From positions 186,001 through 250,000 of the forward strand of contig NZ_LIVV01000004.1 in the NCBI RefSeq assembly GCF_001905825.1: a stretch of DNA of 64,000 bases, written 5' to 3'. Made by a program: the position numbers and the translations under genes. Source of the stretch: Streptomyces sp. CB02009. GTDB lineage: Bacteria > Actinomycetota > Actinomycetes > Streptomycetales > Streptomycetaceae. Shown piece after piece: positions 52,229 to 54,657 of the stretch. The notes beneath the pieces are model-generated. The model had not been told where the DNA came from. It searched no databases and was given only the letters and a program-made list of their open reading frames with translations. Numbering within the stretch: position 1 is the first letter of the stretch; each line of letters starts with the position of its first letter.

Positions 52229-52257
52229 GGGAAGGGCCCCCGGCCGTACGGGGGCAG

Positions 52258-52302
52258 CACAGCGGCGCCATCGCGTTTCAGGTCCGCGATGGCGCCGCTG
52301 TG
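52258..52302. terminator. Bidirectional terminator
   Basis: CACAGCGGCGCCATCGCG pairs perfectly with CGCGATGGCGCCGCTGTG, loop of nine, between the convergent oxidoreductase and Rieske-like genes. Confidence 0.85.
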
Positions 52303-52344
52303 TGGGGGAAGTGCCGGAGCGATCTACAACGACGGGGGAATCGC

Positions 52345-52665
52345 TCAGGCACTGCGGGGGGTGGCGGTGATGGTCTCGGGCTCGATCAGCTGGTGGTCCC
52401 GCTGGTCGAGGTTGACGAAGATCATGCCGTACCGGATGGCACAGCGGATGGGCTGCGGGGCGCCGCGGGGACGGCGGAGGCAGCGGTAGGCGCGGACGTC
52501 CTCGTCCTGCTCCCGTGCCACCACGATCGGCTCTCCGAAGAGGGTGATCTTCAGCGCGTCGCCACGGTGGGGGATTGCCGTGGCGAGGTCGACGAAGTGC
52601 CACCCGGACCGGTAGGCCGAAGCCATCTCCCGGCGGAACCTGGGGTCGTCCGGCGGCACGGTCAC
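52345..52665 (-). CDS. Rieske-like protein lacking cluster ligands
   Basis: 106 residues from GTG 52665, which overlaps the stop of the EPSWES-peptide gene as GTGA. The sequence follows the Rieske [2Fe-2S] fold of ring-hydroxylating dioxygenase alpha subunits (SGWHFVDLATAI, GDALKITLFGEPIVVAREQ, DVRAYRCLRRPRGAPQPIRC, GMIFVNLD), but CxH has become CLR and the second CxxH is missing, so it cannot hold a classical cluster. It is too small to be an oxygenase. I infer a binding, carrier or redox-thiol role acting on or with the peptide encoded just upstream. Length matches no named family that I know. Confidence 0.65.
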   Translation of the reverse strand: MTVPPDDPRFRREMASAYRSGWHFVDLATAIPHRGDALKITLFGEPIVVAREQDEDVRAYRCLRRPRGAPQPIRCAIRYGMIFVNLDQRDHQLIEPETITATPRSA

Positions 52666-52925
52666 GCCCCCGCACCCCTGGACGTGATCTCCCACGACGG
52701 TTCGTAGGGAGCGGCGCGTACGACGTCCCTGGGCGAGCTCTCCCACGAGGGTTCGCCGGGCCCGGCCACCACGTCGTGTGCCGGGGTGCTCTCCCACGAG
52801 GGCTCGTCCGGCCCTGCCACGGAATGCGCCGGGGTGCTCTCCCACGAGGGCTCGCCGACGGCGAGTGCGCCGAGAGCAGCCGCCGCAACGGCTATGGCGC
52901 TAAGTGCACGAACCATCCTGGTCAT
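52662..52925 (-). CDS. Secreted EPSWES-repeat peptide (possible precursor)
   Basis: 87 residues from ATG 52925, which has AGGTGGAG seven bases upstream. A signal peptide (residues 1-22, hydrophobic Ala/Leu/Val run, likely cut after ALA) is followed by four copies of EPSWE(S/I)(T/S), spaced 16-17 residues: EPSWESTPAH, EPSWESTPAH, EPSWESSPRD, EPSWEITSRG, separated by short Val/Gly/Asp/Pro linkers. No cysteine, one Trp per repeat. The pattern is that of a multi-core secreted peptide. Coupled by GTGA to the Rieske-like gene; divergent from a LuxR/TrmB-type regulator. Not assignable to a known family by me; could also be a simple secreted structural peptide. Confidence 0.7.
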   Translation of the reverse strand: MTRMVRALSAIAVAAAALGALAVGEPSWESTPAHSVAGPDEPSWESTPAHDVVAGPGEPSWESSPRDVVRAAPYEPSWEITSRGAGA

Positions 52926-53053
52926 GGCCGATCTCCACCTCTTTTGATCACTACCTCCCCCCCGCGAGTAAGACGATGGCTCACTCCCGCCCCTTTCCAC
53001 CAGCCAACCCGGGCATCATGTTCCTGTAATTCATGACCCTGAGGGGGGTGCAA

Positions 53054-54037
53054 ATGAGGCGAGAATGCGACGAGTCCGGTCATAAGCACAGTCACGGTGA
53101 ACTATGCGACGTGGGCAAGGAGCTCTATGCGAGTGCGCTCCGCACCGGCCGCATAGCCCGCGCGGACGCCGAAGCCGCCCCCTGCCTGAGGGAACTCTCC
53201 CTCCTGCACCCGGACCCGGACGACAGCCAGTGCCTGCGTCCCGTTCCGCCGTCGATCGCGCTCAACCAGCTCGTGCACCCCATCGAGCAGGAGATACAGG
53301 TCCGACGCCAGCACGCGATAGCCCTCGCGGACGCTTTCGAGCCGTTCATGGCGATCCACACCCAGGACCCCTCCGGCGCCCAGGCCATCACGGTCCTCGA
53401 AGGCCTCAGCGTCATCAACGCCGCCCTCGACCGCGCCATCAACGAGTGCACCGAGGAACTCCTCACCATCCAGCCCGGCAGCGGCCGCCGCCCCGAGACC
53501 CTCGAAGCCGCCCTGCGCCGCATGGAGCCGCTGCTCGACCGCGGCGTCCGGATGCGCACGCTCTACCAGCACACGGCACGCCACCATCCCGCCACGCTGG
53601 CCTACGTCGAACGCGTCGCGCCGTACGGGCTCGAACTGCGCACCCTCGAGGAGATCGTCGACCGGCTGATCATCGTCGACCGCAAGGTCGCCTTCGTTCC
53701 CGCGCGCAGCGACCGCCAGGTCGCCCTCGAACTCCGCCACGAGGGCCTCGTCCAGTACCTCGTCGGCGTCTTCGACCAGTTCTGGCTGCACGGCGTGCCG
53801 TGGGAGGACGAGATCCCGTACAGCCCCTCCGTGGACGGCATCGGCGGCGTCCAGCGCTCCATCGCCAAACTCCTCGTCGAGGGCCATGTCGACGAGGCCA
53901 TCGCCCGCCGCCTCGGCATGAACGTGCGCACCTGCCGCGCCCACATCGCCAAGCTCGCCGCCGCCCTCGGCAGCGGCAGCCGGGCCCAGCTCGGCTACCT
54001 GATCGCGCAGTCGGGCATCCTCGAGGGAGACAACTGA
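53054..54037 (+). CDS. LuxR/TrmB-like transcription regulator
   Basis: 327 residues from ATG 53054 with GAGGGGGG upstream. A His-rich start (GHKHSHGELCDVGKELYASALRTGRI) reads like a winged-helix N-domain, residues 60-240 are all-helical (LNQLVHPIEQEIQVRRQHAIALADAFEPFMAI), and the C-terminus carries a LuxR-type helix-turn-helix GHVDEAIARRLGMNVRTCRAHIAKL. Similar orphan regulators sit near small secreted-peptide operons in streptomycetes. It is divergent from the EPSWES-peptide operon, with an intergenic region of 128 bases, so is the best candidate regulator. Target DNA not recognised. Confidence 0.8.
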   Translation: MRRECDESGHKHSHGELCDVGKELYASALRTGRIARADAEAAPCLRELSLLHPDPDDSQCLRPVPPSIALNQLVHPIEQEIQVRRQHAIALADAFEPFMAIHTQDPSGAQAITVLEGLSVINAALDRAINECTEELLTIQPGSGRRPETLEAALRRMEPLLDRGVRMRTLYQHTARHHPATLAYVERVAPYGLELRTLEEIVDRLIIVDRKVAFVPARSDRQVALELRHEGLVQYLVGVFDQFWLHGVPWEDEIPYSPSVDGIGGVQRSIAKLLVEGHVDEAIARRLGMNVRTCRAHIAKLAAALGSGSRAQLGYLIAQSGILEGDN

Positions 54038-54081
54038 CCACCCAGACACCTGACCAGCGTCGAACGGGACAACTCACCGCC

Positions 54082-54555
54082 GTGTACGTACAGATCGACC
54101 TCGACGGGCCCGCCGGGACCCTTCGCGTCTCCGGGCACGACCTACCCACCGTGGAGCTCGTACGGGCCCCCGGGGCCCGCCCCGACACCCATACGCCGAT
54201 CGGCACCCGCAAGCCCGCCCTGCTCGCCCTGACGGTGGCCGGGGAACCCGCCGTCATCAAGCCGGCCCGCGCCCGGCTGCTGCGCCGCTCCTACCGGGTG
54301 GACGTCCGCGTCGACGGCGTCCGCTACCGGCTCGTCCCCAGCTCGCACGTGGACAGCCAGCTGACCCGGAACGGGAAGGCGCTCGGCACCCTGGAGTCCC
54401 AGGGGGACGGCAAGGTGTACGCCGACTGGGACCCGGCCGCCTCCCCCACCCCGCTCGACCACGCCGTCGGCACCGCCCTCGCCGCCGCGTTCGGCACCGG
54501 GGCCGCGCCGTGGTGGGAGACGCTCGGCGACATCGTGGCGGAGCTCATCCCGTAG
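54082..54555 (+). CDS. Hypothetical protein
   Basis: 157 residues from GTG 54082 (VYVQIDLDGPAGTLRVSGHD); no better start codon lies between it and the preceding stop 45 bases upstream, and the ribosome binding site is weak, so translation may depend on the upstream regulator gene. Mostly beta-sheet-like sequence (TPIGTRKPALLALTVAGEPAVIKPARARLLRRSYRVDVRVDG) and an amphipathic C-terminus (APWWETLGDIVAELIP). Cytoplasmic. No domain recognised. The good terminator at 54578 ends this unit. Confidence 0.7.
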   Translation: MYVQIDLDGPAGTLRVSGHDLPTVELVRAPGARPDTHTPIGTRKPALLALTVAGEPAVIKPARARLLRRSYRVDVRVDGVRYRLVPSSHVDSQLTRNGKALGTLESQGDGKVYADWDPAASPTPLDHAVGTALAAAFGTGAAPWWETLGDIVAELIP

Positions 54556-54577
54556 CCCGGCGGTCCCGTACACGCGG

Positions 54578-54609
54578 GAAGCCCCCTCCACGACCGTGGA
54601 AGGGGCTTC
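54578..54609. terminator. Bidirectional terminator before hspR
   Basis: GAAGCCCCCTCCACG pairs with CGTGGAAGGGGCTTC (one mismatch), located between the convergent gene at 54555 and hspR. Confidence 0.85.
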
Positions 54610-54657
54610 ACGCGTCCAGGGGACGCCCGGCGCGGGGCCGGGCCGCCGGACGGGGGC

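Follow-up and report, generated by a model that had tools for sequence, protein, structure and literature searches.

The DNA analysed here, called the window below, is a stretch of 64,000 nucleotides from Streptomyces sp. CB02009 (contig NZ_LIVV01000004.1). It contains a compact locus built around a predicted precursor with four copies of the pentapeptide EPSWE, and the list of open reading frames (ORFs) places this locus between clpB on one side and hspR/dnaJ/grpE/dnaK on the other, as we take the flanking ORFs to be. The sequence-only reading, which preceded this analysis, had pointed to the locus as a possible peptide natural-product system, and its position between clpB and the dnaK operon is borne out by the ORFs of the window. 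The features are as follows:

52662..52925, minus strand: predicted precursor of EPSWE peptides, 87 residues, with a Sec-type signal peptide at about residues 1-24 (hydropathy rule)
52839..52853, minus strand: core 1, EPSWE
52791..52805, minus strand: core 2, EPSWE
52740..52754, minus strand: core 3, EPSWE
52689..52703, minus strand: core 4, EPSWE
52662..52665, minus strand: GTGA overlap of the precursor stop (TGA) and the Rieske-like start (GTG)
52345..52665, minus strand: cluster-less Rieske-like protein, 106 residues, GTG start, so far from Streptomyces only
53013..53026, minus strand: CAGGAACATGATGC, candidate operator within the promoter that the precursor and the divergent regulator share, with conserved 10-mers and a single exact copy in the genome
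53033..54037, plus strand: regulator, 334 residues, with an N-terminal part, a PLD-like TrmB sensor and a C-terminal LuxR-type helix-turn-helix (HTH); proposed receptor
54082..54555, plus strand: hypothetical gene, 157 residues, probably accessory
52257..52303, strand unassigned: hairpin separating the Rieske-like gene from the convergent PPOX gene, -41 kcal/mol, z -7.6 and -9.2
54563..54624, plus strand: hairpin after the hypothetical gene, -44.7 kcal/mol, z -5.4

The signal-peptide-like ORF with its four EPSWE units and the GTGA coupling to the 106-residue gene are thus both present as first described. Precursor and regulator share a divergent promoter of about 110-130 bases; an alternative start of the regulator is the ATG at 53057. 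Two further elements of the original description hold in part: the gene group is closed by strong hairpins on both sides, but scanning for a terminator consensus with a U-tract gave no match, and the hypothetical gene, counted there as part of the island, is present in the window but recurs in only 25 of 80 named loci and is not a fixed part. These loci represent the best 80 of 466 relatives in named genomes; clpB was found in 79 of them, the PPOX gene in 79 and hspR in 66, all neighbour counts being limited by locus length. The hypothetical gene matched no Pfam or NCBIfam family.

The locus is widespread within a single genus. In a first draw, the 106-residue gene was found in 32 of 61 genomes (own genome included), all from Streptomyces. 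Among 392 Streptomyces genomes, 332 yielded matches to the Rieske-like gene at E<=0.001; 11 weak ones were inspected and comprised seven full-length oxygenases and four divergent short orthologues, and a fair count for the locus is about 325 of 392. When 197 genomes were drawn from the whole class, with the best 24 first-look candidates scored per genome, full-length matches came from 15 Streptomyces genomes and from no other genus, and all other matches covered at most residues 2-75, in frames of 241-748 residues. One record named Microtetraspora glauca NRRL B-3735 (L101) carries a Streptomyces-type locus and is possibly a misnamed strain.

In the window, the four EPSWE units of the precursor occupy residues 25-29, 41-45, 58-62 and 75-79 (spacing 16, 17 and 17) behind a basic-hydrophobic N-terminus, and the protein matches no Pfam or NCBIfam family. 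Using our own hydropathy-based rules for signal peptides and precursor detection rather than SignalP, we read a precursor at the expected place in 160 of 161 orthologous loci; the sole exception, L168, is a mis-cut duplicate, and in L140, whose core is DLAWD, the start was mis-picked. The 154 distinct precursors contain up to nine copies each of a motif [D/E/N]-x-x-W-x, with 34 dominant core tetrads among them, and a precursor from the wider regulator set (L220) reaches twelve copies. Of their tryptophans, 532 lie within cores and 10 outside. The repeats had been proposed to be functional cores, and homologous loci without repeat conservation had been named as a finding that would speak against the sequence-only reading; the opposite emerged, in that place and pattern of the motif are kept across orthologous loci while its residues are species-specific.

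Within a precursor, the copies are mostly uniform. Core positions 1-3 are identical in 809 of 840 within-precursor pairs (96%) versus 10.4% of between-precursor pairs, and 127 of the 139 multi-copy precursors are uniform at these positions. Pair agreement is 97-100% over core residues 1-4, 72% at position 5 and 18-51% in flanking residues, while 22-38% of comparisons at positions 1-3, counting residues with alternative codons, show synonymous codon differences. Because the residues agree while their codons differ, selection on the peptide, beyond fresh duplication, maintains the unit. Moreover, in 26 of 154 precursors the last tryptophan is followed by just one more residue (Trp+1), and the most divergent orthologues have a single core ending there (QQDPAWD, QQDPTWG). 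Given this core conservation and the 26 precursors ending at Trp+1, the active unit is most likely a penta- or tetrapeptide. Applied to 310 kb of downstream flanks, the same rule found no such cores in 291 signal-peptide-like ORFs, and elsewhere in the window it found them in one of 53; the cores at the locus are not a chance occurrence.

The proposed partner of the peptide is the regulator. The divergent TrmB/LuxR-type regulator named in the sequence-only reading is supported by its structural model (pLDDT 79), which matches TrmBL2, TrmB, PLD-like proteins and LuxR-HTH, and by a wider-family profile that matches TrmBL2 (E 1.8e-8) as well as LuxR-type HTH regions of DevR/GerE type. The Pfam family GerE is below its cut-off for the window regulator and above it in six of 10 relatives scanned, and no tetratricopeptide repeat (TPR) family was matched by 11 regulators at E up to 1. 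Among orthologues, the HTH is strongly conserved.

The sensor part, by contrast with the HTH, varies together with the core. We compared 71 of the 80 named loci, having dropped those that repeated the precursor of another locus and those in which the rule missed the regulator or clpB, and used clpB distance as species clock; one locus, L083, had a paralogous regulator, and the test was repeated with the remaining 70. Core difference correlated with sensor distance at a rank r of 0.67, or 0.64 given clpB, and none of 500 label permutations reached the sensor value given clpB alone; the unadjusted coefficients were 0.46 for the regulator N-terminus, 0.29 for the Rieske-like protein, 0.28 for clpB and 0.25 for the HTH. 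Given all other distances (70 loci), the partial r was 0.55 for the sensor, 0.14 for the N-terminus, 0.01 for the Rieske-like protein and -0.03 for the HTH. The sensor value persisted both among proline-type cores (0.61, 54 loci) and among non-proline cores (0.46, 16 loci). Sensor residues of the window regulator that covary with the core are L143, M174, I208, D210, V215, G245, F250 and W257.

The same pattern can be seen between close relatives. At clpB distances below 0.04, mean sensor distance is 0.021 in 51 same-core pairs versus 0.320 in 48 different-core pairs, whereas the HTH (0.044/0.060) and the Rieske-like protein (0.020/0.030) hardly move. For instance, the DNA of L060 and L066, which carry EPSW and DPGW, respectively, has an identity, computed per 150 columns, of 0.95-0.96 in the Rieske-like gene and of 0.95-0.98 along almost the whole of clpB. 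Identity drops to 0.43-0.48 across the precursor and then climbs along the regulator until its HTH end reaches 0.91-0.97. By the same measure two same-core pairs, single 150-column stretches excepted, retain 0.95-1.00 over precursor and regulator. Signal and sensor thus diverge as a block between conserved flanks, a pattern known from pherotype loci.

Toxin-immunity loci, too, diversify strongly between close species and diverge in blocks, and the peptides could accordingly be secreted toxins that inhibit relatives, with the Rieske-like protein or the regulator providing protection. The Rieske-like protein as candidate immunity protein, however, hardly diversifies with the core (partial r 0.01, and 0.20-0.21 within the two core subsets), the units are four to five residues long, most viral copies (see below) lie near an integrase, and PADLOC assigned no family to the precursor or the Rieske-like protein and a weak CARF-type match (E 0.008) to the HTH part of the regulator. 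We consider this explanation distinctly unlikely. Another possibility is that the precursor is secreted to serve in structure or stress, its repeats carrying no signal and the regulator doing no more than control it; the neighbours clpB and hspR and the variable copy number would suit such a protein, but single-copy precursors that end exactly at Trp+1, synonymous divergence within identical cores and covariation with the sensor would not be expected of it, which makes it a very improbable explanation.

Related regulators and precursors also occur elsewhere, and several of them belong to phages. A second regulator of this genome, P0001, is 24% identical to the window regulator over the alignment; regulators found with it share 30-40% identity, and 86% in the case of L207. 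Divergent precursors next to P0001-type regulators contain two copies each of DPGWG (L041/L206, L207, L208), DSDWG (L209), DTTW (L210), DSSWN (L211) or DPNW (L216), and all end at Trp or Trp+1. An integrase (Pfam) lies near the pair in L252, L253 and L255, and the neighbours in these loci and in L256 and L257 resemble terminase, head, tail and lysis genes by our own reading rather than a family search. The window's genome itself also holds a prophage-like region (L041/L252; L263), in which a precursor with two DPGWG copies and its regulator lie near an integrase. In Chymera, an isolated phage of Streptomyces, regulator (gene 29) and precursor (gene 30) are followed by genes annotated as integrase, immunity repressor and excise; the product of gene 30 has an Ala-Gln-Ala site directly before one DPGWG and ends with DPGWG. 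Four of six regulator queries led to nine IMG/VR contigs, all with a divergent precursor, and the viral precursors that were read contain two to four copies; the other two queries had no match among the IMG/VR viral contigs. The regulators of L263 and L272 are 100% identical to copies in this genome and in G031. Integrases lie within the fetched stretch of eight of the 10 viral loci (L269 and L272 being the others) and in three of the 10 wider prophage and paralogue loci.

In phages with DPGWG or DLGWG cores, the precursor is followed by a small membrane-type protein, which may be the output gene of these phages, where the chromosomal locus has the Rieske-like one:

L266, 7076-7342: RSLRGQVDDLRAEVA-like protein
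L263, 1361-1756: RSLRGQVDDLRAEVA-like protein
L267, 1258-1458: RSLRGQVDDLRAEVA-like protein
L268, 1849-2007: RSLRGQVDDLRAEVA-like protein

Among the members displayed in a tree of the regulators (FastTree, with no support test for the grouping), the precursor-bearing phage-type members form one clade beside the clpB-dnaK clade; the former also includes L212, which lacks a precursor, while a small number of further regulators with precursors are scattered. Across the 41 loci of the paralogue search, 19 of 195 signal-peptide-like ORFs have cores, seven of them in window-type loci; the 19 count one gene twice, as L041 and as L206, and include L223, probably a chance match. Single-core precursors ending at Trp+1 (DQGWN, DLSWG, DLTWG, NISWD) were also found at four of 30 regulator loci in a sister family belonging to the same order. 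We also observed two signal-peptide-like small proteins of this genome that are convergent to TrmB/LuxR regulators, with two DDFVWP cores (L039, 1170-1430, plus strand) and one DNGWP core (L042, 2429-2710, minus strand), respectively. In 16 Streptomyces loci (L236-L251), chosen for several regulator matches already seen there, one to five TrmB/LuxR paralogues come after the first regulator to give arrays of two to six, and the family of G038 (14 genomes) has 26 to 91 regulator-profile matches per genome, weak HTH-only matches included.

The Rieske-like protein differs from the other two components in its conservation as well as its distribution: none of the 10 viral and 10 wider prophage and paralogue loci has a match to its profile. 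It is matched by PF00355 over the N-terminal half only and below the cut-off (E=0.0076), and by the GbcA model far below that model's cut-off (E=8e-7), while profile comparisons give Rieske oxygenases from E 1.3e-5. Its structural model (pLDDT 69) likewise finds Rieske oxygenases as best Foldseek matches (prob 1.00, best E 2e-3), partially aligned. The first 70 residues align with Rieske oxygenases, and one later strand aligns by eye with L182 and L183. The loss of the CxH/CxxH ligands, claimed at the outset, is confirmed: the first motif reads CLRRPRG, the stretch with CPYHSW is deleted in the comparison by eye with L182/L183, and the catalytic domain is gone. The C-terminus T-P-x-x-A is invariant in 39 aligned sequences and may serve as a binding tail. 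We find it most likely that this is a non-catalytic output or accessory protein. As individual variants, L094 (4001-4339) encodes a Rieske-like protein with a seven-residue tandem duplication (LDQRDHQ), and L189 and L190 have a second copy (65-66% identical) far from the locus, with no recognizable precursor upstream.

Two enzymatic alternatives have to be weighed here. First, the protein could be a working redox protein with displaced ligands, since most of the 39 sequences retain C62 and C75; yet neither cysteine is invariant, the first being absent from the divergent orthologues L178-181 and the second from L176/L177, there is no histidine pair, and the cluster-binding segment is deleted, so that such a role strikes us as improbable in the extreme. 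Second, the cores could be modified at their tryptophans by the Rieske-like or the PPOX protein and released as an antibiotic, that is, as a ribosomal natural product. Repeated cores with one tryptophan each, the coupled small partner and the PPOX gene in nearly all named loci would fit, but none of the five proteins scanned against Pfam and NCBIfam belongs to a maturase family, and PPOX is convergent and lies behind the hairpin. That no maturase of a known class stands beside the precursor had been said before, and scans and neighbours agree. The suggestion that went with it, a small partner acting as a new kind of peptide-acting enzyme in a natural-product system, was not sustained, as this protein has lost ligands and catalytic domain, is absent from the 20 viral, prophage and paralogue loci, and is followed less closely by the cores than the sensor is. 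With no maturase and with phage copies that lack the Rieske-like gene, we set the natural-product explanation aside as quite unlikely.

The shared promoter offers a candidate site of action for the regulator. The 10-mers GAACATGATG and AACATGATGC, or their complements, each occur in 153 of 154 upstream regions, and the 14-mer CAGGAACATGATGC has its single exact copy in the 9.2-Mb genome in the window. With up to two mismatches it has 94 genome matches versus 53 for a reversed control, and we claim no wider regulon. The conservation of the element, its single genome copy and the strongly conserved HTH together suggest a dedicated autoregulatory operator; alternatively, it could be a promoter element.

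Taken together, the locus is real, widespread and not a natural-product cluster, and judging from these comparisons its products are probably a short peptide, secreted as a signal, and the receptor for it. What the computations show is the order of the genes and their conservation, the homogeneity of the cores, the divergence in blocks, the covariation of sensor and core, the presence in phages and the conserved promoter element; secretion, processing, import, binding and regulation, along with any function of the Rieske-like protein, are inferred. The precursor would be exported and cleaved by secreted proteases to free several [D/E/N]-x-x-W-x copies, here EPSWE or possibly the tetrapeptide EPSW. 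The peptide would then be re-imported, probably via an oligopeptide permease, and bind the PLD-like sensor domain of the divergent regulator, which would act at the 14-base element to control its own gene together with the operon of precursor and Rieske-like protein. The latter protein would be a remnant of a Rieske oxygenase that has lost the cluster-binding loop and the catalytic domain. Temperate phages, which carry the core pair mostly near an integrase, would use it to tune lysogeny in the manner of arbitrium.

Several observations weigh against this peptide signal-receptor reading. The covariation is partly linkage, as the regulator N-terminus is block-divergent as well (0.063/0.331 at clpB distances below 0.04); the partial r of the Rieske-like protein within the proline and non-proline subsets indicates that it is not wholly independent of the core; several core-associated regulator columns merely separate the proline from the non-proline clade; and two further pairs with different cores, L117/L119 and L064/L101, show the block less sharply, with more scatter and a precursor dip of 0.41-0.53. 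Among 50,697 phage records, Chymera (two records) was the sole match of four queries, and the divergent precursor next to 10 of 10 viral regulators (the nine IMG/VR contigs and Chymera) is not an unbiased rate, the viral queries themselves being precursor-linked. No precursor was found next to 22 of 38 TrmB/LuxR regulators in the Streptomyces search (seven of the 16 precursor-bearing ones belong to window-type loci), 11 of 12 in the window's genome, 26 of 30 in the sister family and 14 of 27 in the clpB-dnaK set, the last being mostly array copies; many members of this regulator family therefore do without a precursor. None of the 20 phage and paralogue loci scanned contains the core of the promoter element, and these would thus need operators of their own. 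Finally, BldK imports a signal of 655 Da (PMC9640686); we considered identity with this signal and rejected it for the 90 pentapeptides examined, none of which has a mass of 653-657, a result that does not extend to the core of S. coelicolor itself.

In Streptomyces coelicolor, clpB is SCO3661 and hspR is SCO3668 (PMC2631018), and locus order leads us to regard SCO3664 as the probable regulator of this locus. PMC6585502 terms SCO3664 a regulator and reports that a transposon insertion in it raised actinorhodin more than 50-fold. SCO3665 (327 residues) and SCO3666 (394 residues) are of the LuxR family (PMC3282765), which fits the arrays of two to six regulators. If the signal-receptor reading is true, Streptomyces, major makers of antibiotics, would nearly all use a peptide signal, each species in its own dialect; the regulator at the locus would, by locus order, restrain actinorhodin; Streptomyces phages would share the same signalling chemistry; and a receptor family outside RRNPP would exist in a group in which peptide quorum sensing is scarcely known. 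On balance we favour the view that Streptomycetales communicate by peptides in a way that forms a class of its own, with [D/E/N]-x-x-W-(x) pheromones, PLD-like TrmB/LuxR receptors, chromosomal pherotype cassettes and an arbitrium-like phage version; a search of the open-access literature, with subscription journals and bioRxiv outside it, returned no description of this system. Short synthetic peptides such as DPGWG, EPSWE and DSTWV make it testable on antibiotic production, development and lysogeny.

The closest functional parallels are the RRNPP systems of Firmicutes (Rap-Phr, PlcR-PapR, NprR-NprX), in which a short peptide lies near the C-terminus of the precursor and pairs are strain-specific. 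The window's 87-residue propeptide with its hydrophobic N-terminus and the 334-residue receptor encoded divergently beside it resemble them, and the receptor falls within the 250-500 residues of the RRNPP criteria, which call for a small exported propeptide and an adjacent cytosolic receptor (PMC10075063). The same paper also describes Actinomycetota signals as typically enzyme-made small molecules and lists AimR as RRNPP, and some RRNPP propeptides are tandemly duplicated (PMC11343458). By contrast, the present receptor has a PLD-like TrmB sensor and a LuxR HTH instead of TPR repeats, and the system belongs to Streptomycetales. In arbitrium (AimR-AimP), peptide precursor and receptor are encoded in temperate Bacillus phages near lysogeny genes, and the viral relatives described here, with Chymera as example, are placed similarly; however, the window copy is chromosomal, the receptor is not of the AimR-type TPR family, and the unit is DxxW(x), present in two to four copies in the viral precursors. 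With TrmB and TrmBL2, the regulator shares the sensor fold and an N-terminal DNA-binding part, but it adds the C-terminal HTH, and its proposed ligand is a peptide rather than a sugar. The Rieske-like protein, in turn, resembles the alpha subunits of Rieske oxygenases (GbcA, carnitine and naphthalene oxygenases) in its first 70 residues and, by the partial match of its model, perhaps in fold, but has neither the [2Fe-2S] ligands nor the catalytic domain. The locus is thus best read as one that works like RRNPP and arbitrium systems, yet is not a member of either, because its receptor is not a TPR protein.

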